Assembly (NCBI GenBank): GCA_016866255.1
Contig: VGMY01000009.1
Span: forward strand, 20,787-84,786
DNA length: 64,000 nt
Source: Bacteroidota bacterium
GTDB lineage: Bacteria; Bacteroidota; Bacteroidia; Flavobacteriales_D; Crocinitomicaceae
Direction: 5' to 3'
The position numbers and the translations under genes are program-made. Shown one piece after another: positions 26,725-64,000 of the stretch. A model generated the notes under the pieces. That model searched no databases, was not told the origin of the DNA, and worked only from the letters and a program-made list of their open reading frames with translations. The number at the start of each line of letters is the position of its first letter. Positions within the stretch are counted from its first letter, which is position 1.

Positions 26725-27177
26725 CTATAACCCCCTCACCACCTTCAAAGCCTCGTCAATGTGCTGTGTGGCGTTGAGTTGGGAATTGAAGATTCCACGA
26801 ACGGTGCCTTCGGTGTCAATGATGTAGGTTACGCGGCCTGGTAACAAGCCCAGGAATGATTTAGGAACGCCGAACAAGGTTCTCGCTTCCTTTTTCTCGT
26901 CGGCTAAAAGGGGGAAAGGCAACTTGTACTTAATGGCAAATGCCTTGTGCGCTTTCGGGGTGTCCGAGGAGATGCCAATGACTTCGCAGCCGAGGTCTTG
27001 AAATACCGTGTATTGGTCCCGAAAACTGCAGGCTTCTTTGGTGCAGCCAGGCGTGTCGTCTTTGGGGTAGAAATACAAGACCACGGTTTTCTTTCCGATT
27101 ATGTCTTGGATATTTACGGGTTCTCCGTCTTGGTTTTGTAGGGTAAATTCAGGGATTTTGTCGCCTATGCGTATCAT
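26725..27177 (-). CDS. bcp: thioredoxin-dependent thiol peroxidase (Bcp/PrxQ peroxiredoxin)
   Basis: VVLYFYPKDDTPGCTKEACSFRDQY. Confidence 0.95.
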   Translation of the reverse strand: MIRIGDKIPEFTLQNQDGEPVNIQDIIGKKTVVLYFYPKDDTPGCTKEACSFRDQYTVFQDLGCEVIGISSDTPKAHKAFAIKYKLPFPLLADEKKEARTLFGVPKSFLGLLPGRVTYIIDTEGTVRGIFNSQLNATQHIDEALKVVRGL

Positions 27178-28478
27178 GCGGTTTTGTTTAATGCGGTTTT
27201 AAAACGTTCAATAACCCGATTGCGAGCAAAGGTATGTTCAATGATGGGGTGTGGGTAGGCTGAGGTGCCGAATTCGGGAATCCAACGTTTTACGTATTCA
27301 AATTTCGCATCGAATTTTTCTTGCTGCGCGGTGGGATTAAACACTCGAAAATACGGCGCGGCATCGCAACCTCCTCCTGCTGCCCATTGCCATCCTCCAA
27401 GGTTGCTGGCCAATTCAAAATCCAATAATTTTTTGGCAAAATACCCTTCTCCCAAGCGCCAGTCGATCAGCAAATGCTTGGTTAAAAAACTGGCAGTCAC
27501 CATGCGCACCCGATTGTGCATGAATCCTGTAGCGTTCAATTCCCGCATTCCGGCGTCTACCAGCGGGTATCCCGTGGTACCTTCGCACCAGCGTTTGAAA
27601 TGTTCAGAATTTTGCTCCCATTGAATCGCATCGTATGCTGGCCTAAAAGAACTGGTAACCGTATATGGAAAGTGAAAAAGAATCATTTGGTAAAACTCTC
27701 GCCAGATTAACTCATTCAGGTACGTTTCGTTGAGTTTGAGGGCCCTTAAGGCCAATCGCCGAATACTTAAGGTACCGAAGCGTAGGTGTACCCCGAGCCT
27801 TGATGTTCCGGGTTTTCCTGGAAAATTCCGTTGTTCGCTGTATTTAGAAATCAGCAAATCTTCCACTTGAGTCGTGGGAAATGCTATACCTGACGGCTTA
27901 AAACCGATATCGGATAAGGATGGAATTTTAGAGTGGCTGGTAATTCCTCGAACCTTAGTGAGGTTTTCGAGGGAATTATGGGGCGTAATGGGGTGTTGTT
28001 GTAGCCGTTCCTTCCATTTTCGGGCATAGGGTGAAAACACCGTATATGGGGTGCCATCGCCCTTCATTACCTCGTTTTTTTCAAATATTACATGGTCCTT
28101 TGCGCCCGTAAAGCCAACCCCCATGGATTGCAGGATTTCATACAGGGCTTTGTCGCGTTGAAGGGCATAAGGCTCGTAGTCGCGATTGGTAAAAACATGG
28201 TCCACCTGCATTTCCTCAGCCAAGACGGGTATGATTTCTACCGGATTGCCAATTTCCACGCGTAAATGAAGGTTGTGAGAAGCATACTCTTCGGAAAGTC
28301 GGACGATTTCGCGATGTATGAATTCCACGCGCGCATCGTTTTTATCCAATTCGTTGAGAATTTGAGTGTCGAAAATAAATATCGGTTGAACGAATTCCGC
28401 ACAATTACAAGCTTTTAAAAGTCCCGCATTGTCCTCAAGACGCAAGTCGCGTCGATGCCAAAATATTGCTTTGCTCAT
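27174..28478 (-). CDS. deoxyribodipyrimidine photolyase / cryptochrome family protein
   Basis: MSKAIFWHRRDLRLEDNAGL; GTSRLGVHLRFGTLS; WREFYQMILFHFP; LIDWRLGEGYFAKKLLDFELASNLGGWQWAAGGGCDAAPYFRVFNPTAQ. Confidence 0.95.
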   Translation of the reverse strand: MSKAIFWHRRDLRLEDNAGLLKACNCAEFVQPIFIFDTQILNELDKNDARVEFIHREIVRLSEEYASHNLHLRVEIGNPVEIIPVLAEEMQVDHVFTNRDYEPYALQRDKALYEILQSMGVGFTGAKDHVIFEKNEVMKGDGTPYTVFSPYARKWKERLQQHPITPHNSLENLTKVRGITSHSKIPSLSDIGFKPSGIAFPTTQVEDLLISKYSEQRNFPGKPGTSRLGVHLRFGTLSIRRLALRALKLNETYLNELIWREFYQMILFHFPYTVTSSFRPAYDAIQWEQNSEHFKRWCEGTTGYPLVDAGMRELNATGFMHNRVRMVTASFLTKHLLIDWRLGEGYFAKKLLDFELASNLGGWQWAAGGGCDAAPYFRVFNPTAQQEKFDAKFEYVKRWIPEFGTSAYPHPIIEHTFARNRVIERFKTALNKTA

Positions 28479-28491
28479 GGGTAATAAAACA

Positions 28492-28513
28492 ACAAACACA
28501 TATTTATGTTTGT
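28492..28513. promoter_or_regulatory. Inverted repeat ACAAACA-N8-TGTTTGT in the divergent photolyase/oxidoreductase promoter region
   Basis: Perfect 7-bp arms in the intergenic region between divergent starts. Confidence 0.5.
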
Positions 28514-28568
28514 ATTGGTCATTGCTCAGCTGTCAATTCGTAATGAATAAGCACATTAAAATTTATTT

Positions 28569-29216
28569 TTGCGTATGATAAAGCGAGTTGCCATGATTAT
28601 TGGGTCCTCTGGATTGGTAGGATCTTGCTTACTGGACGAGTTGATTAAGCGACAAGATATTGCTGAAATTAGGTTGCTTGTAAGAAAACCAATAAGTCAG
28701 TTGCCGCGGAAAGTTCATCAATTCGTAACAGATTTCACAGCATTGGATGTTGCCTCAGATTTTTTCAAGGTCGATGTGCTTTATTGTTGCCTTGGAACAA
28801 CGCGAAAGAAGACACCGAATCTTCAAGCATACAAAGCCATTGATTTTGGTATAACCATGGATGTTGCCCGACGAACCAAAATCAACGGATGCAATGAAGT
28901 GCATTTGGTTTCTTCCGTCGGGGCAAATGCAACTTCATCGAATTTTTACTTGAGGATTAAAGGCGAAACGGAGGAAGGTTTAATAAGTTTGGGTTTTGAA
29001 CGATGTTGTATTTATCGACCTTCCATGCTTCTTGGAAAGCGCCATGAATCAAGGCCTTTAGAACGCGTTGCCCAGCGGCTGATGCCTATATTTGATTTAC
29101 TAACATTAGGCGGTAAATACCACAGCATTGAAGCCTCGTCGGTTGCAAGGACCATGAGCCAACCCGTAAAGGTTGCTGGTGTTGTAATTCTTGAATATCA
29201 GGAATTGCGTGGGTGA
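28569..29216 (+). CDS. NAD(P)H-binding (atypical SDR) oxidoreductase
   Basis: MIIGSSGLVGSCLLDELIKR; DVLYCCLGTTRKK; VHLVSSVGANATSSNFYLRIKGETEEGL. Confidence 0.85.
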   Translation: MRMIKRVAMIIGSSGLVGSCLLDELIKRQDIAEIRLLVRKPISQLPRKVHQFVTDFTALDVASDFFKVDVLYCCLGTTRKKTPNLQAYKAIDFGITMDVARRTKINGCNEVHLVSSVGANATSSNFYLRIKGETEEGLISLGFERCCIYRPSMLLGKRHESRPLERVAQRLMPIFDLLTLGGKYHSIEASSVARTMSQPVKVAGVVILEYQELRG

Positions 29217-29221
29217 CCTCA

Positions 29222-29626
29222 TTATTCCCCTGCGTATTCAACCCAATTTTTTTCGGTTTCGAAAAGTTTGAGAGACAGCTTACCGTAGGATTTGAGATGC
29301 GGTAAAAGATTGTTGTAACAAACCAAAGCAATGTTTTCCACGGTTGGGTTTAGGTCAAAAAACTCCGGGCAATCCATGTTGAGGTTCTTATGGTCGTAAC
29401 GGTCAGTAACCTCTCTTGCTATGATGTCTTTTAAAATCTTTACATCGATAACATAACCTGTTTCGGGGTCAATTTGTCCATCTATGCCCACTTCTAGAAT
29501 ATAATTATGACCGTGGTAGTTTATGTTATTGCAAAGGCCAAAAATGGCCTCGTTTTTTTCGTGGCTCCAGTCTTTCCGATAAAGGCGATGGGCAGCATTA
29601 AAGTTTGCGCGACGTACAATTTTCAT
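29222..29626 (-). CDS. 6-pyruvoyl-tetrahydropterin synthase / 6-carboxytetrahydropterin synthase (QueD) family
   Basis: FNAAHRLYRKDWSHEKNEAIFGLCNNINYHGHNYILEVGIDG; DLNPTVENIA. Confidence 0.88.
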   Translation of the reverse strand: MKIVRRANFNAAHRLYRKDWSHEKNEAIFGLCNNINYHGHNYILEVGIDGQIDPETGYVIDVKILKDIIAREVTDRYDHKNLNMDCPEFFDLNPTVENIALVCYNNLLPHLKSYGKLSLKLFETEKNWVEYAGE

Positions 29627-30147
29627 GGCTTGAGAATGTCGTTAAAAGCAGATTTATATTCTAAAATTATTTTCTTAAACCAAGCTGTATAGTCCTGTGG
29701 ATTTCTTTCAATGTCCTCCTCGATATCGTGCATGGCCATCCATTTAAAATCCGATACTTCTTCTGGATTGGCATTGGGTAAGTCATTGGTAAAACCGATT
29801 AGAACATGGTCTAGCTCGTGCTCCACTAGGTTGTTCAATTCGGCACGATAGATAAAGCTGAACAGTGGCGCCAAGGAGGTTTTGATGCCCATTTCCTCTT
29901 TGAGTCGTCTTTTTGCGGCCTCAAGGATATCTTCTCCAGGTGATGGATGGCTGCAGCAAGTATTGGTCCAAAGACCTTCTGAATGGTATTTTCCTAGTGC
30001 GCGTCGGTGTAAGAGCAGCTTTCCGTTGGAGTTAAAAATTAAGACCGAAAAGGCTCTGTGTAACATGCCCAAAAGGTGGGCATTCATTTTTTCCATGGTT
30101 CCGATTTCCTCATCGTGTTTGTTCACTAAAATGACCTCTTGCATCAT
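29623..30147 (-). CDS. idi: isopentenyl-diphosphate delta-isomerase, type 1
   Basis: LLHRRALGKYHSEGLWTNTCCSHPSPGEDILEAAKRRLKEEMGI. Confidence 0.95.
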   Translation of the reverse strand: MMQEVILVNKHDEEIGTMEKMNAHLLGMLHRAFSVLIFNSNGKLLLHRRALGKYHSEGLWTNTCCSHPSPGEDILEAAKRRLKEEMGIKTSLAPLFSFIYRAELNNLVEHELDHVLIGFTNDLPNANPEEVSDFKWMAMHDIEEDIERNPQDYTAWFKKIILEYKSAFNDILKP

Positions 30148-30980
30148 AGTAAATTCAGATTATGTCGGACATACGATGCCAGCAAGAGTCCTACTTTTCG
30201 ATTATTTGGGATGCGGATTCGCTCATTAAGGATTACCCTAGCCGGGGTTTTTTTAATTTTCGCAAACAATTTATAATAATAAATGTAGGCCAAATAAACT
30301 CCGAATCGTGCTTTTTTGGGGAGTTTCAGTATTCCTAGATACCCTGCGTGAAAGTCTGCTTCGATGTCTTTTTCGATGTCATGTTTGACTCTCGAATTAA
30401 ATTCATTCATGTCGATTCCTGGAAAATAAACGCGGCCAAGTGATTTGTAATCCGCGTTGAGGTCCCTTAAAAAGTTGATTTTTTGAAAGGCTGAACCAAG
30501 ACTCATGGCCGCCGGTTTCAGTCGAAGGTATTCTTCTTCATCTCCGGCAACAAACACTTTTAAGCACATAAGACCAACCACTTCGGCAGATCCGAGAATA
30601 TATTTTTTGTACAGTTCCTCGTCGTACGCTTGTTTATCGAGATCCATTTTCATGGACTCCAAAAAGGTTTCGATAAGTTCACGGGGGATGTTGTAACGAT
30701 TAACAGCCCACTGGAAGCTGTTCAATATCGGGTTTAATGAAATTCCTTGATCAATTGCTAAATAGGTTTGATGGCGAAAATCCTCAAGCAGCGCGGTTTT
30801 ATCGTAGTCGTGAAAAGAATCAACAATTTCATCGGCGAAGCGAACAAAACCGTATATAGCGTATATGGGTTTTTGAATTTCACGGCTTAACATTTTGATG
30901 CCAAGCGAAAAAGATGTACTGTAGCGTTGGGTTGTGAGCGTGCTCATTTCATGACTAATGTTGTCGAATGCATTTTTCAT
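30144..30980 (-). CDS. crtB: phytoene synthase
   Basis: YAIYGFVRFADEIVDSFHDYDK; YILGSAEVVGLMCLKVF; AFQKINFLRDLNADYKSLGRVYFP. Confidence 0.94.
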   Translation of the reverse strand: MKNAFDNISHEMSTLTTQRYSTSFSLGIKMLSREIQKPIYAIYGFVRFADEIVDSFHDYDKTALLEDFRHQTYLAIDQGISLNPILNSFQWAVNRYNIPRELIETFLESMKMDLDKQAYDEELYKKYILGSAEVVGLMCLKVFVAGDEEEYLRLKPAAMSLGSAFQKINFLRDLNADYKSLGRVYFPGIDMNEFNSRVKHDIEKDIEADFHAGYLGILKLPKKARFGVYLAYIYYYKLFAKIKKTPARVILNERIRIPNNRKVGLLLASYVRHNLNLL

Positions 30981-32452
30981 GTTAATGGATTTTGTAGGAT
31001 GTGTTTGGCCACCACTTCACCTGATATTATCGATGGAGGTACCCCAGGTCCGGGTACGGTAAGTTGACCGGTATAATAAAAGTTATTCAAGTTTTTGTTC
31101 TTGATGCGCGGTTTAAAGATAGCAGTTTGGCTCAAGGTATTCGCAAGGCCGTAAGCATTCCCTTTGAATGCGTGGTAATCTTTTTTGAAATCTGAAATCG
31201 AAAAACTACGTTTGTACACGATATGGTCTTTGATATCATTTCCCGTTATTTTACGTAAGCGCTCTAGTAAAATGTCGAAATAGTGTTCTCTTGTCGCTTC
31301 TTCATCCGTTAAATTTGGTGCAATTGGGATGAGAAAAAACAAGTTTTCACACCCTTGAGGAGCCGAATTCGGATCGGTTAAAGAAGGAACACTTAAATAA
31401 AACAAAGGGGCAGTCGGCCATTGAGGGTTTTTGTAAATTTCTTTCCCGTGCTCCTCAAGAGACTCATCGAAAAAGAGGTTGTGGTGCCTTAAATTTTCCA
31501 CACGTTTATTCAATCCTACATAGTACAAAAGTGCAGAAGGGGCCATAACCCGCTTGTCCCAATATGTGTCTGAGTAATTTGCAGAACCATTAAGTAATTG
31601 CTTTTCGGTATGTTGGTAGTCGGCTGAAGAAATGAACACATCTGAAAGATAGTGATTTCCTGCGATGTCTACTGCTGCAGAAACTTTTCCTGAAGACTTT
31701 TCCAACCGCGCCACCTCCGCATTGGTTATGATTTTCACATCTTGTTCTTGGGCAATTTTTTCAAAGGCCTCAATGAATTTGTACATACCCCCCATCGGAT
31801 ACCAAGTTCCAAGCTCCATATCTGCGTAATTCATCAGGGAATACAGCGCTGGGGTGTCCTTGGGCATTGCTCCGAGGAAGAGAACTGGAAATTCTAATAA
31901 GGAACGGAGTTTTGGATGCTTAAAGTAGCGGTTTACATAGTTGGAAAACGAATTAGTGAGATCCATCGAAAACAAGCCTTTTAAAAGGCGAAAATCCATG
32001 AATTCCGTTAATTTAAGCGAAGGTTTGTACACCAAATCCTTCATCCCAACTTCATATTTGTACTTTGCATCTTTCAAGAAAGCGCGCAATTTTACACTGC
32101 TGCCCGGTTCAAAACTTTCAAACAGTGCTTCCAATTCCCCCATCGTAGCTGGTATATCGGAGTAGGTCGTATCGTTCCAATACACGCGGTAGGAGGGGTC
32201 CAGGCGACGCAATTCATAAAAGTCGGCAGCTGTATGATTAAATTTTTGGTAGAATTGTTCAAAAACATCGGGCATCCAGTACCAACTCGGCCCCATATCA
32301 AAAACAAATCCTTCGTGCGAAAACTGACGGGCTCTTCCTCCAATGGTATCGTTTTTCTCCAGAACGGTAACATCCCAGCCTTCCTTAGCAAGAAAGCACG
32401 CTGCAGATAGTCCGGAGATACCAGCGCCGAGAACCGTAGCTTTGCGTGGCAT
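30977..32452 (-). CDS. crtI: phytoene desaturase
   Basis: ATVLGAGISGLSAACFLAKEGWDVTVLEKNDTIGGRARQF; C-terminal FYYTGQLTVPGPGVPPSIISGEVVAKHI. Confidence 0.96.
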   Translation of the reverse strand: MPRKATVLGAGISGLSAACFLAKEGWDVTVLEKNDTIGGRARQFSHEGFVFDMGPSWYWMPDVFEQFYQKFNHTAADFYELRRLDPSYRVYWNDTTYSDIPATMGELEALFESFEPGSSVKLRAFLKDAKYKYEVGMKDLVYKPSLKLTEFMDFRLLKGLFSMDLTNSFSNYVNRYFKHPKLRSLLEFPVLFLGAMPKDTPALYSLMNYADMELGTWYPMGGMYKFIEAFEKIAQEQDVKIITNAEVARLEKSSGKVSAAVDIAGNHYLSDVFISSADYQHTEKQLLNGSANYSDTYWDKRVMAPSALLYYVGLNKRVENLRHHNLFFDESLEEHGKEIYKNPQWPTAPLFYLSVPSLTDPNSAPQGCENLFFLIPIAPNLTDEEATREHYFDILLERLRKITGNDIKDHIVYKRSFSISDFKKDYHAFKGNAYGLANTLSQTAIFKPRIKNKNLNNFYYTGQLTVPGPGVPPSIISGEVVAKHILQNPLT

Positions 32453-32457
32453 AGTTC

Positions 32458-32970
32458 TTAGTTGTCAAGGTGTTGGTAGTCGGGTAGTTGATCCATGAGT
32501 CGTTTCCTTGCAATAAATATACGACTTTTAATGGTGCCGATTGGTAGCTCCATCGTATCGGCTATTTCTTTGTATTTGAAGCCATCAAAGTGCATTTTGA
32601 AAGGAACCTTTAACTCTTCGTTTAAATTTTCTATTTTTTCGGTGATTTCCTTAACTGCCAAACGCTCGGAGGGAGACCCAATATTAGACCTCTGGGAAAC
32701 CATTAGGAAATCCTCGTCGCCTTGATCGAAAATCATGCGAGTTTTTGAATTTCTCCGGTATTGATTAATAAAAATGTTTCGCATGATGGTGAACACCCAA
32801 GCCTTAAAATTGGTATTTGGGGTGTAGTATGTGCGATAATTGATGGCTTTGAGCAGCGTTTCTTGGGTTAAATCTCGGGCATCTTCACGGTTCTTAGTGA
32901 AGTTTTGCGCAAAAGAAAAAAGGTTTCCTTGAATCCCTACTAATGCTTCGTTAAATTCAATCGTTGACAT
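32458..32970 (-). CDS. ECF-type RNA polymerase sigma factor heading the crtI-crtB-idi operon
   Basis: NREDARDLTQETLLKAINYRTYYTPNTNFKAWVFTIMRNIFINQYRR ... YKEIADTMELPIGTIKSRIFIARKRL; 5-bp gap to crtI. Confidence 0.93.
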   Translation of the reverse strand: MSTIEFNEALVGIQGNLFSFAQNFTKNREDARDLTQETLLKAINYRTYYTPNTNFKAWVFTIMRNIFINQYRRNSKTRMIFDQGDEDFLMVSQRSNIGSPSERLAVKEITEKIENLNEELKVPFKMHFDGFKYKEIADTMELPIGTIKSRIFIARKRLMDQLPDYQHLDN

Positions 32971-58308: not shown

Positions 58309-58386
58309 GGAGGTTGTAGCTCAGTAGGTTAGAGCGTCGGATTGTGGTTCCGAAGGTCGCGGGTTCGAAACCCGTCTCCCTCCCCA
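58309..58386 (+). tRNA. tRNA-His (GTG), CCA encoded
   Basis: G-1 + GAGGTTG TA GCTC-N9-GAGC, TCGGA TTGTGGT TCCGA, GCGGG TTCGAAA CCCGT, CTCCCTC C CCA; anticodon GTG. Confidence 0.93.
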
Positions 58387-61689: not shown

Positions 61690-61860
61690 ATGTCAAGGAC
61701 TCCAATATCCTCCATCTCATTAAGGGTAAATGGTCGCGAAGGAGCGTTCGAAGTAAATAATGCCAATTTTCTGGCTTGGCTTCAAAATATTTCTAAAACA
61801 AATAGTATTTTAACGGGCTATTACGTTGCTATTACCCATCAACCGTCTTGCACTGAATGA
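61690..61860 (+). CDS. Small hypothetical ORF translationally coupled (ATGA) to the crtY-blh gene
   Basis: 56 aa MSRTPISSISLRVNGREGAFEVNNANFLAWLQNISKTNSILTGYYVAITHQPSCTE; the ATGA at 61857-61860 is shared with the downstream start. Confidence 0.35.
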   Translation: MSRTPISSISLRVNGREGAFEVNNANFLAWLQNISKTNSILTGYYVAITHQPSCTE

Positions 61861-63830
61861 GTTTTACGTCTAATGACCTCTTTGATTATGCTTTCATCGG
61901 TTTGGGCTGTGGTAACGCACTGACGCTGCTACAACTTGAGGAGCGAGGCCTGATTCAAGGCAAACGGATTTTGGTGATCGAACCCGACGACAAACGAAAA
62001 AACGACCGTACCTTTTGTTTTTGGATGGAGCCAAGTAGGGTCGAGGGTGGTTTTTTACAAGATTTAGTTCAAAATACGTGGAACAGTGTTTTTGTTGGTG
62101 GAACCGTTCAATCGCTCGATCCTGTAAAGTATTACCGAGTTCCCGGTGTGGCACTGAATGCTCAAGTCCGCAAGATTTTAGAACGAGCGAGTGCATTGCA
62201 TTTACCAGTACACTACCAAGGCTCAGCGAATATTTTTGAGGGCAAAGCCCTTATTTTGATCGATGGTAAGACCTACACGGCGAACTATGTTTTCGATAAT
62301 CGACCACCGAGTTATGAGGCGCCGAATATATCTGAAGCCCGTTTATTGCAGAGTTTTTCAGGTTGGGAAATACAAACGGAAGAGGCCGTTTTTGACCCTG
62401 AATGTTTCACGATGATGGATTTTAACGTTGAACAAGAAGGAGCCACTCAATTTATGTATGTGTTGCCTTTCGATGAACATCGTGCCCTCGTCGAAATCAC
62501 TCGATTTGGTGAGCAAATCATTACACTGGAACAGGCTGAGGGGGCACTAAAACGCTATCTGGAAAGTCGGTCAATAAGGTATTTAATCCAAGAAAAAGAG
62601 CAGGGGGCTATTCCTATGTTTATTGGTTCAAGAGTTGTTTCAAACCTTCATGAAAAATGGATTAACACCGGAGAACGTGCGGGGATGTTGAAGCCGAGTA
62701 CGGGCTATTCGTTTGAACGTTCTCTAACCTATGCACACCTCGTGGTGCAAAGTATCGTGGATCAAAAACCTTTGTTGCCTTACCGAACTTCGCGATTCCA
62801 TTATTATGATCGCCTCTTGTTGCAATTATTGAGGGACCAACCAAATCACGGAAAACGCATTTTTGAACAATTATTTCAGCGCAATCCTGTAGACAAAGTC
62901 CTTCGATTTTTGGACGAACGCACCAGAATTAAGGAGGATATTGCTTTACTAAGCAGCCTGCCTATTTCTCTATTTTTAACAGCAGTATTTAAGGACATCG
63001 CATGGCGGGCCCCTTCACAATTATTGAAGATACCCCTGATTTTATTGGCGGGTATCGTAGTATACCTCTTATGTTTGTTTCAACAGATTGCGACAGTATA
63101 TGGCCTATTAGGTTTAGGCATGTTGCTTGTCGGTATACCTCACGGTGCCTTAGATCATCTTTATGTTCTGAAAAAGCCCACTGGATTTAATTTATTGAAA
63201 TATGTGTTGGCTTACCTTGCAATGGGAGCATTTGTTTTCGCGTTGTTTTGGGTGTATCCGTTTCTAGGATTGTTGTTTTTTTTAATTTTTTCGTCATGGC
63301 ATTTTGGAAATACCGATTTTTTGGCGTGGGGCAATAAAAATGTCATTCATGGTTTCCTTTGGGGGAGTTATTATTTAGGGGGAATCCTGATAAGCCATGA
63401 AAGGGAATGCGCTCGTATATTATCGGAAATGAACATTCCTACTTGGGAATTGGGGGGCATACCTGACTACGTTTGGGTAATTTGGATTGCAATGGGAGGC
63501 TTTTTCTTACTGGTAAGCCGAAGGAAGTGGGCGATGCTTTGGAGTATTCTAGCTTTATCCTTGTTTTCTTTCCTACCACTGATTGCAGCCTTTGGTGTAT
63601 TTTTTGTTTTTCAACATAGTTTGTACGGGTGGAGTCAGTTAAAGCGCAAGGTACAGAAAACAAACGGGCAATTGTGGATTAGGGCCTTGCCCTTTTCCTT
63701 GGGTTCCATAATCCTTTTATTGTTGGTTTTGACCTTAGTTCCCGTTTCATGGGGACAGGGTTTTATTTTCTTGGCGGCTGTCAGCTTTCCCCACGTTGTT
63801 TATACTGCGCTTAAAAACAGCTCGACTTAA
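61857..63830 (+). CDS. Fusion protein: CrtY-type lycopene beta-cyclase (N) + Brp/Blh-type beta-carotene 15,15'-dioxygenase (C)
   Basis: N-terminal NDRTFCFWMEP, LLQSFSGWEIQTEEAVFDPECFTMMDF, AGMLKPSTGYSFERS, VLRFLDERTRIKEDIALLSSLPISLFLTAVFKD; C-terminal polytopic domain with GIPHGALDHLY, FSSWHFGNTD, FVFQHSLYGW, SFPHVVY; one uninterrupted frame. Confidence 0.9.
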   Translation: MSFTSNDLFDYAFIGLGCGNALTLLQLEERGLIQGKRILVIEPDDKRKNDRTFCFWMEPSRVEGGFLQDLVQNTWNSVFVGGTVQSLDPVKYYRVPGVALNAQVRKILERASALHLPVHYQGSANIFEGKALILIDGKTYTANYVFDNRPPSYEAPNISEARLLQSFSGWEIQTEEAVFDPECFTMMDFNVEQEGATQFMYVLPFDEHRALVEITRFGEQIITLEQAEGALKRYLESRSIRYLIQEKEQGAIPMFIGSRVVSNLHEKWINTGERAGMLKPSTGYSFERSLTYAHLVVQSIVDQKPLLPYRTSRFHYYDRLLLQLLRDQPNHGKRIFEQLFQRNPVDKVLRFLDERTRIKEDIALLSSLPISLFLTAVFKDIAWRAPSQLLKIPLILLAGIVVYLLCLFQQIATVYGLLGLGMLLVGIPHGALDHLYVLKKPTGFNLLKYVLAYLAMGAFVFALFWVYPFLGLLFFLIFSSWHFGNTDFLAWGNKNVIHGFLWGSYYLGGILISHERECARILSEMNIPTWELGGIPDYVWVIWIAMGGFFLLVSRRKWAMLWSILALSLFSFLPLIAAFGVFFVFQHSLYGWSQLKRKVQKTNGQLWIRALPFSLGSIILLLLVLTLVPVSWGQGFIFLAAVSFPHVVYTALKNSST

Positions 63831-63913
63831 AAAACGTTTTGACTTCGTTTGAAGCTCAAGAATTTTCGTTGATTGTTTCTTGGAAATACGCCAACATTGA
63901 CTACTTTTGCCAC

Positions 63914-63998
63914 GGAGAGTTGGCAGAGTGGTCGATTGCGGCGGTCTTGAAAACCGTTGAACCGCGAGGTTCCGGGGGTTCGAATCCCTCACTCTCCG
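63914..63998 (+). tRNA. tRNA-Ser (TGA)
   Basis: Acceptor GGAGAGT pairs with ACTCTCC; anticodon loop CTTGAAA; long variable arm; T-arm GGGGGTTCGAATCCCTC. Confidence 0.92.
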
Positions 63999-64000
63999 CT

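Follow-up and report, generated by a model that had tools for sequence, protein, structure and literature searches.

A lycopene cyclase–Blh fusion protein found across Bacteroidota and its probable role in retinal synthesis

The window, a 64,000-nucleotide stretch of Bacteroidota DNA, contains a gene in which a CrtY-type lycopene cyclase continues without a stop into a Brp/Blh-type β-carotene dioxygenase. We consider that the product is probably a bifunctional, membrane-bound retinal synthase of single origin, serving as a branch set aside for retinal, next to a distinct route for pigments. The two catalytic activities, their products and any benefit of the fusion, whether from proximity or from channelling, are predictions from sequence. 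Both halves belong to known families; a search confined to the open-access literature found no description of a bacterial CrtY–Blh fusion.

Architecture of the fusion protein

The gene is a single unbroken frame of 657 codons, running from ATG to TAA, and both domains that the first-pass annotation of this DNA had assigned to it are present. The protein is composed of two domains connected by a short helical junction:

61857–63830, + strand: CrtY–Blh fusion gene; one open frame, two Pfam domains over cut-off
61902–62966, + strand: CrtY-type lycopene cyclase domain with an FAD fold, residues 16–370 (PF05834)
62967–63116, + strand: junction, residues 371–420; the final CrtY helix, then the first Blh membrane helix
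63117–63800, + strand: Brp/Blh (BCD) membrane domain, residues 421–648 (PF15461, TIGR03753)

Pfam detects nothing else in the 657-residue protein. An 86-residue open reading frame just upstream has no Pfam match and is not conserved. Downstream, a tRNA-Ser gene (63914–63999) lies immediately before the contig end. A tRNA-His gene is located at 58310–58386, and listed reading frames that overlap the tRNAs (e.g. 63747–63992) are probably spurious.

The CrtY half matches PF05834 (Lycopene_cycl) with 154 bits against a cut-off of 23 (E = 6e-45), and Gly15 and Gly17 of the FAD-type N-terminal GxG are conserved. Its FLEET-like motif reads LVEITRFG, where Glu213 (62493–62495) is invariant in fused and standalone CrtY; we take this residue to be the catalytic glutamate known from the lycopene cyclase family. 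Foldseek matches to this half are FAD proteins of the geranylgeranyl-reductase and hydroxybenzoate-hydroxylase (PHBH) kind, as expected for CrtY, together with a viral lycopene cyclase. The NCBIfam scores fall below the cut-offs for both the CrtY equivalog (TIGR01789; 52 versus 215 bits) and the lycopene cyclase family (TIGR01790; 95 versus 209 bits). Four of four standalone Bacteroidota CrtY proteins also fail the NCBIfam CrtY cut-offs, indicating that the low score reflects a limit of the models; with scores this far below them, assignment of β-bicyclase activity rests on homology. Because the NCBI models recognize only the Blh half, automatically assigned names may conceal the cyclase, and genomes that carry the fusion may seem to have no crtY.

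The C-terminal half was anticipated to be a Brp/Blh domain, and both PF15461 (BCD; 105 bits versus a cut-off of 28, E = 9e-30) and TIGR03753 (Blh; 120 versus 95 bits) match it over cut-off. The four predicted motifs, GIPHGALDH, SSWHFG, FQHSLYGW and FPHVVY, are all present. They contain His429 (63141), His482 (63300), His587 (63615) and His646 (63792), which occur without exception in 94 of 94 fused relatives and are conserved in 47–49 of 49 unfused Blh proteins. From what is known of the Blh family, these histidines are presumably iron ligands.

An AlphaFold2 model built from 67 fused relatives (mean pLDDT 92, pTM 0.75) consists of a mixed α/β half followed by an all-helical half, which hydropathy also identifies as membrane-embedded. 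The junction is modelled as three helices (residues 370–389, 394–407 and 411–431), with a hydropathy segment at 389–407. Standalone Bacteroidota CrtY proteins end at the start of residues 371–420, about where the CrtY part had first been placed (to about residue 384). Several residues in both halves, His514, Glu517, Trp592 and Ser643 in Blh and Gln198 and Arg216 in CrtY, are nearly invariant in fused proteins and rare in unfused ones, possibly reflecting an interface or substrate trait. The nearest unfused pair (locus L207) also has His514, Glu517, Gln198 and Arg216.

Genomic context and proposed role

Genes for the early steps of carotenoid synthesis are located elsewhere in the window:

32458–32970, − strand: ECF sigma factor, leading the crtI–crtB–idi row (PF04542, PF08281)
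30977–32452, − strand: crtI matching the bifunctional CrtID type, a phytoene desaturase and 3,4-desaturase (NF058655, 723 bits, cut-off 640)
30144–30980, − strand: crtB, phytoene synthase; no other PF00494 protein was found in the genome
29623–30147, − strand: idi, isopentenyl-diphosphate isomerase; overlaps crtB (scores over the cut-offs of NF002995 and TIGR02150)

The crtI product would supply lycopene. The − strand region from 27174 to 32970 also includes a 6-pyruvoyl-tetrahydropterin synthase gene, with a DNA photolyase/cryptochrome gene nearby, and this cluster is possibly light-responsive.

A rhodopsin gene had been predicted outside the window and none within it; both expectations hold, with the gene located on contig C15. 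The 248-residue product matches PF01036 over cut-off (155 bits) and carries the proton-pump residues D, T and E (DTE) in RYVDWLLTVPLMCVEFYLI. A methionine precedes CVE, which we presume, by analogy with known proteorhodopsins, to indicate green absorption. The best PDB match is proteorhodopsin 9jov. Rhodopsin, PF05834, BCD and crtB are each represented once in the genome. Directly upstream of the rhodopsin gene is a gene for a di-haem cytochrome c peroxidase (MauG-like; L174:7867–8886).

In a sample of 148 genomes from the same family, 27 carry the fused frame; in three of the 27, it either runs off the end of a contig or is interrupted close to its start. Rhodopsin is present in 24 of these 27 genomes versus 7 of 116 without any Blh (Fisher p = 6e-18, with genomes that are not independent by descent). 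A rhodopsin gene adjoins the fusion in 40 of the 67 loci with readable flanks, and in 27 of these it lies immediately upstream in the same orientation; in the clade of the window protein it does not adjoin the fusion. Two members of the same genus are mismatched: the fusion is present in G132 with no rhodopsin found, and G075 has a rhodopsin together with CrtYcd only, having neither the fusion nor CrtY. These cases could reflect either assembly gaps or a rhodopsin without its own retinal synthesis.

The genome also encodes a second lycopene cyclase, CrtYcd (237 residues, PF18916), which is unrelated to CrtY. The PF18916 search that found it removed an initial reading, from a PF05834 search, of the fused CrtY as the only lycopene cyclase of the genome. 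CrtYcd lies on contig C5 in a row with SDR, CruF-like and CrtZ-like genes (L236:5849–8649), which forms a second carotenoid cluster. The CruF-like protein is matched by PF04240, and the 159-residue CrtZ-like protein, which has no Pfam or NCBIfam match, was called by its histidine motifs. A PF04116 match on contig C27 was considered as crtZ and rejected, as the 231-residue protein is not CrtZ-like. The CrtYcd/CrtZ-like/CruF-like trio is also found in three other genomes (G022, G132 and G075).

Of 29 fusion genomes, 26 have CrtYcd (the fusion itself was checked in five of these), compared with 2 of 19 in which crtY and blh are separate genes (p = 4e-8). Within the family, CrtYcd accompanies the fusion in 21 of 21 genomes but a standalone CrtY in 1 of 7 (p = 2e-5). 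Shared descent makes both p-values too strong, and the within-family contrast is the better one. Standalone CrtY thus tends to replace CrtYcd as the pigment cyclase, whereas fused CrtY comes on top of it. The fusion genomes without CrtYcd, G349, G365 and G465, belong to one genus (family f23) and show that the second cyclase is not universal; in these three, lycopene may be cyclized by fused CrtY alone.

In the proposed pathway, the CrtY domain would cyclize both ends of lycopene to give β-carotene, which the Blh domain would cleave at the 15,15′ bond into two retinals that would load the proteorhodopsin of the genome. On the pigment side, CrtYcd would cyclize one end of the carotenoid, CruF would hydrate the other and CrtZ would hydroxylate the ring, yielding monocyclic or hydroxylated xanthophylls such as saproxanthin- or myxol-like pigments. 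The CrtID-type crtI fits such routes, which include a 3,4-desaturase step. The presence of a second cyclase beside CrtZ-like and CruF-like genes makes the fusion look like a branch reserved for retinal. With the cyclase tied to Blh, β-carotene would be cleaved before CrtZ or CruF could divert the carotenoid.

Studied relatives illustrate this competition. In Nonlabens spongiae, CrtY alone makes β-carotene from lycopene, and together with CruF it makes mainly monocyclic 1′-hydroxy-γ-carotene (PMC11855829). In Algoriphagus, crtYcd and cruF are thought to give monocyclic flexixanthin (PMC10784355). These monocyclic routes suggest that β-carotene may be scarce when CruF is present. A stricter version of the proposal, which we put forward only tentatively as the less likely case, is a true channelling synthase that takes in lycopene and releases retinal with no free β-carotene. 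If so, cells whose bulk carotenoids are monocyclic through the CruF/CrtYcd route could still load rhodopsin, and the fusion would be a widespread, single-origin answer to competition between pigment and chromophore.

The domains could instead work as separate enzymes, the fusion serving plain co-expression at fixed stoichiometry, with β-carotene shared with CrtZ through the membrane. This would fit the 20 loci in which separate crtY and blh genes are adjacent or overlapping, where co-expression is already in place, and the many lineages that still keep the standalone state. However, a general supply of β-carotene needs no second cyclase, yet 26 of 29 fusion genomes have CrtYcd, and standalone CrtY mostly replaces CrtYcd within the family. 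We regard this explanation as unlikely, though it deserves consideration.

It is improbable that the CrtY half is a monocyclase whose product, γ-carotene, would be cleaved by Blh to one retinal and an acyclic aldehyde. Half of each molecule would be wasted, and the CrtY of N. spongiae, for which CrtYm is the closest relative studied, produced chiefly bicyclic β-carotene from lycopene (PMC11855829). The idea draws on the probably monocyclic bulk pigments of the fusion genomes and on CrtYm, the lycopene cyclase of strain P99-3, which is cited in PMC11855829 as a β-monocyclase.

Spread and origin of the fusion

To define the spread of the fusion, 85,462 species genomes were scanned with patterns derived from the cyclase half alone, giving 447 relatives. 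In all 80 of the best 80 relatives retained, the cyclase continues into Blh in one frame. Both Pfam domains are found in 67 of 67 aligned fusion members, and frames around a BCD domain reach 631 residues or more in no fewer than 86 members of the order. Fused loci are deposited as Crocinitomicaceae, Cryomorphaceae, Schleiferiaceae, Chitinophagaceae, Sediminibacterium and Saprospiraceae, among others, and divergent examples are 32–55% identical to the window protein. The first-pass annotation, which noted that many identical fusions would lower the novelty, was right about the fusion; the architecture is no rarity, being a trait of many Bacteroidota. No plasmid record covers 80% of the fusion query. 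A 958-residue frame around a BCD domain in G380 was rejected as a further fusion; judged by its translation, it is a long open frame in GC-rich sequence, and the membrane-cyclase-like neighbour is separate from it.

The divergence of these proteins bears on whether both halves are functional. Residues of active-site type are invariant in both halves across 67–94 divergent fusions, indicating selection on both, so that an inactive half or a protein cut in the cell (for example with CrtY as merely a membrane anchor) is very improbable. The source is a draft assembly of 50 contigs, but an assembly or sequencing artefact joining two genes, or a frameshift separating them (the outcome that would have counted against the first proposal), is ruled out by recurrence of the same single frame in 80 of 80 named loci and in at least 86 genomes of the order.

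Phylogenies of the two domains suggest how the fusion arose. In the Blh tree (92 domains), a branch supported at 100/97 sets the 54 fused domains apart from the rest, and in the CrtY tree (74 domains), a branch supported at 76/96 (81% of bootstraps) does so for the 55 fused domains. Each tree needs one change between the fused and unfused states. This one-sided placement in both trees indicates that a single fusion event is likely; from these sequences, the fusion appears to be old and to have then spread widely in Bacteroidota. The nearest unfused CrtY in the CrtY tree is that of G293, whose crtY and blh genes share four bases. Most of the other unfused pairs read likewise adjoin or overlap. 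Among the 20 loci with adjacent or overlapping separate genes, the gaps range from −64 to +10 nucleotides, excepting one truncated crtY frame. The ancestor was probably such an overlapping crtY–blh pair, which loss of the stop codon and a small indel would bring into one frame. The genus represented by the window has members in several fused subclades that lie far apart, a pattern suggestive of horizontal transfer of the fusion.

Related systems and significance

The closest comparison is with the adjacent, often overlapping crtY and blh genes of proteorhodopsin operons, as in G293 (locus L207) and many other Bacteroidota. The families, gene order and pathway step are the same, but these operons encode two proteins, whereas the fused clade stands apart in both trees. 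Standalone Brp/Blh and standalone CrtY proteins are single-domain and have in common with the fusion halves the four conserved histidines and the FLEET-like glutamate. The CrtI–CrtB–CrtYcd–Blh protein of Thecamonas trahens also occurs naturally and likewise has a cyclase and then Blh as its last two domains; it differs in being eukaryotic, in having four domains and in using the small membrane CrtYc/d cyclase, which is unrelated to the FAD-fold CrtY (PMC10016063). The CrtIB fusion of Verrucomicrobiota is likewise a retinal-pathway gene fusion tied to a bacterial rhodopsin, but it joins the desaturase to phytoene synthase and leaves crtY and blh separate (PMC10284914).

A natural one-protein enzyme from lycopene to retinal would be useful for vitamin A production and rhodopsin expression. 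For the organisms themselves, the fusion would couple rhodopsin to its chromophore supply across a sizeable group of aquatic Bacteroidota, and it offers a reason for the presence of two unrelated lycopene cyclases in one genome.
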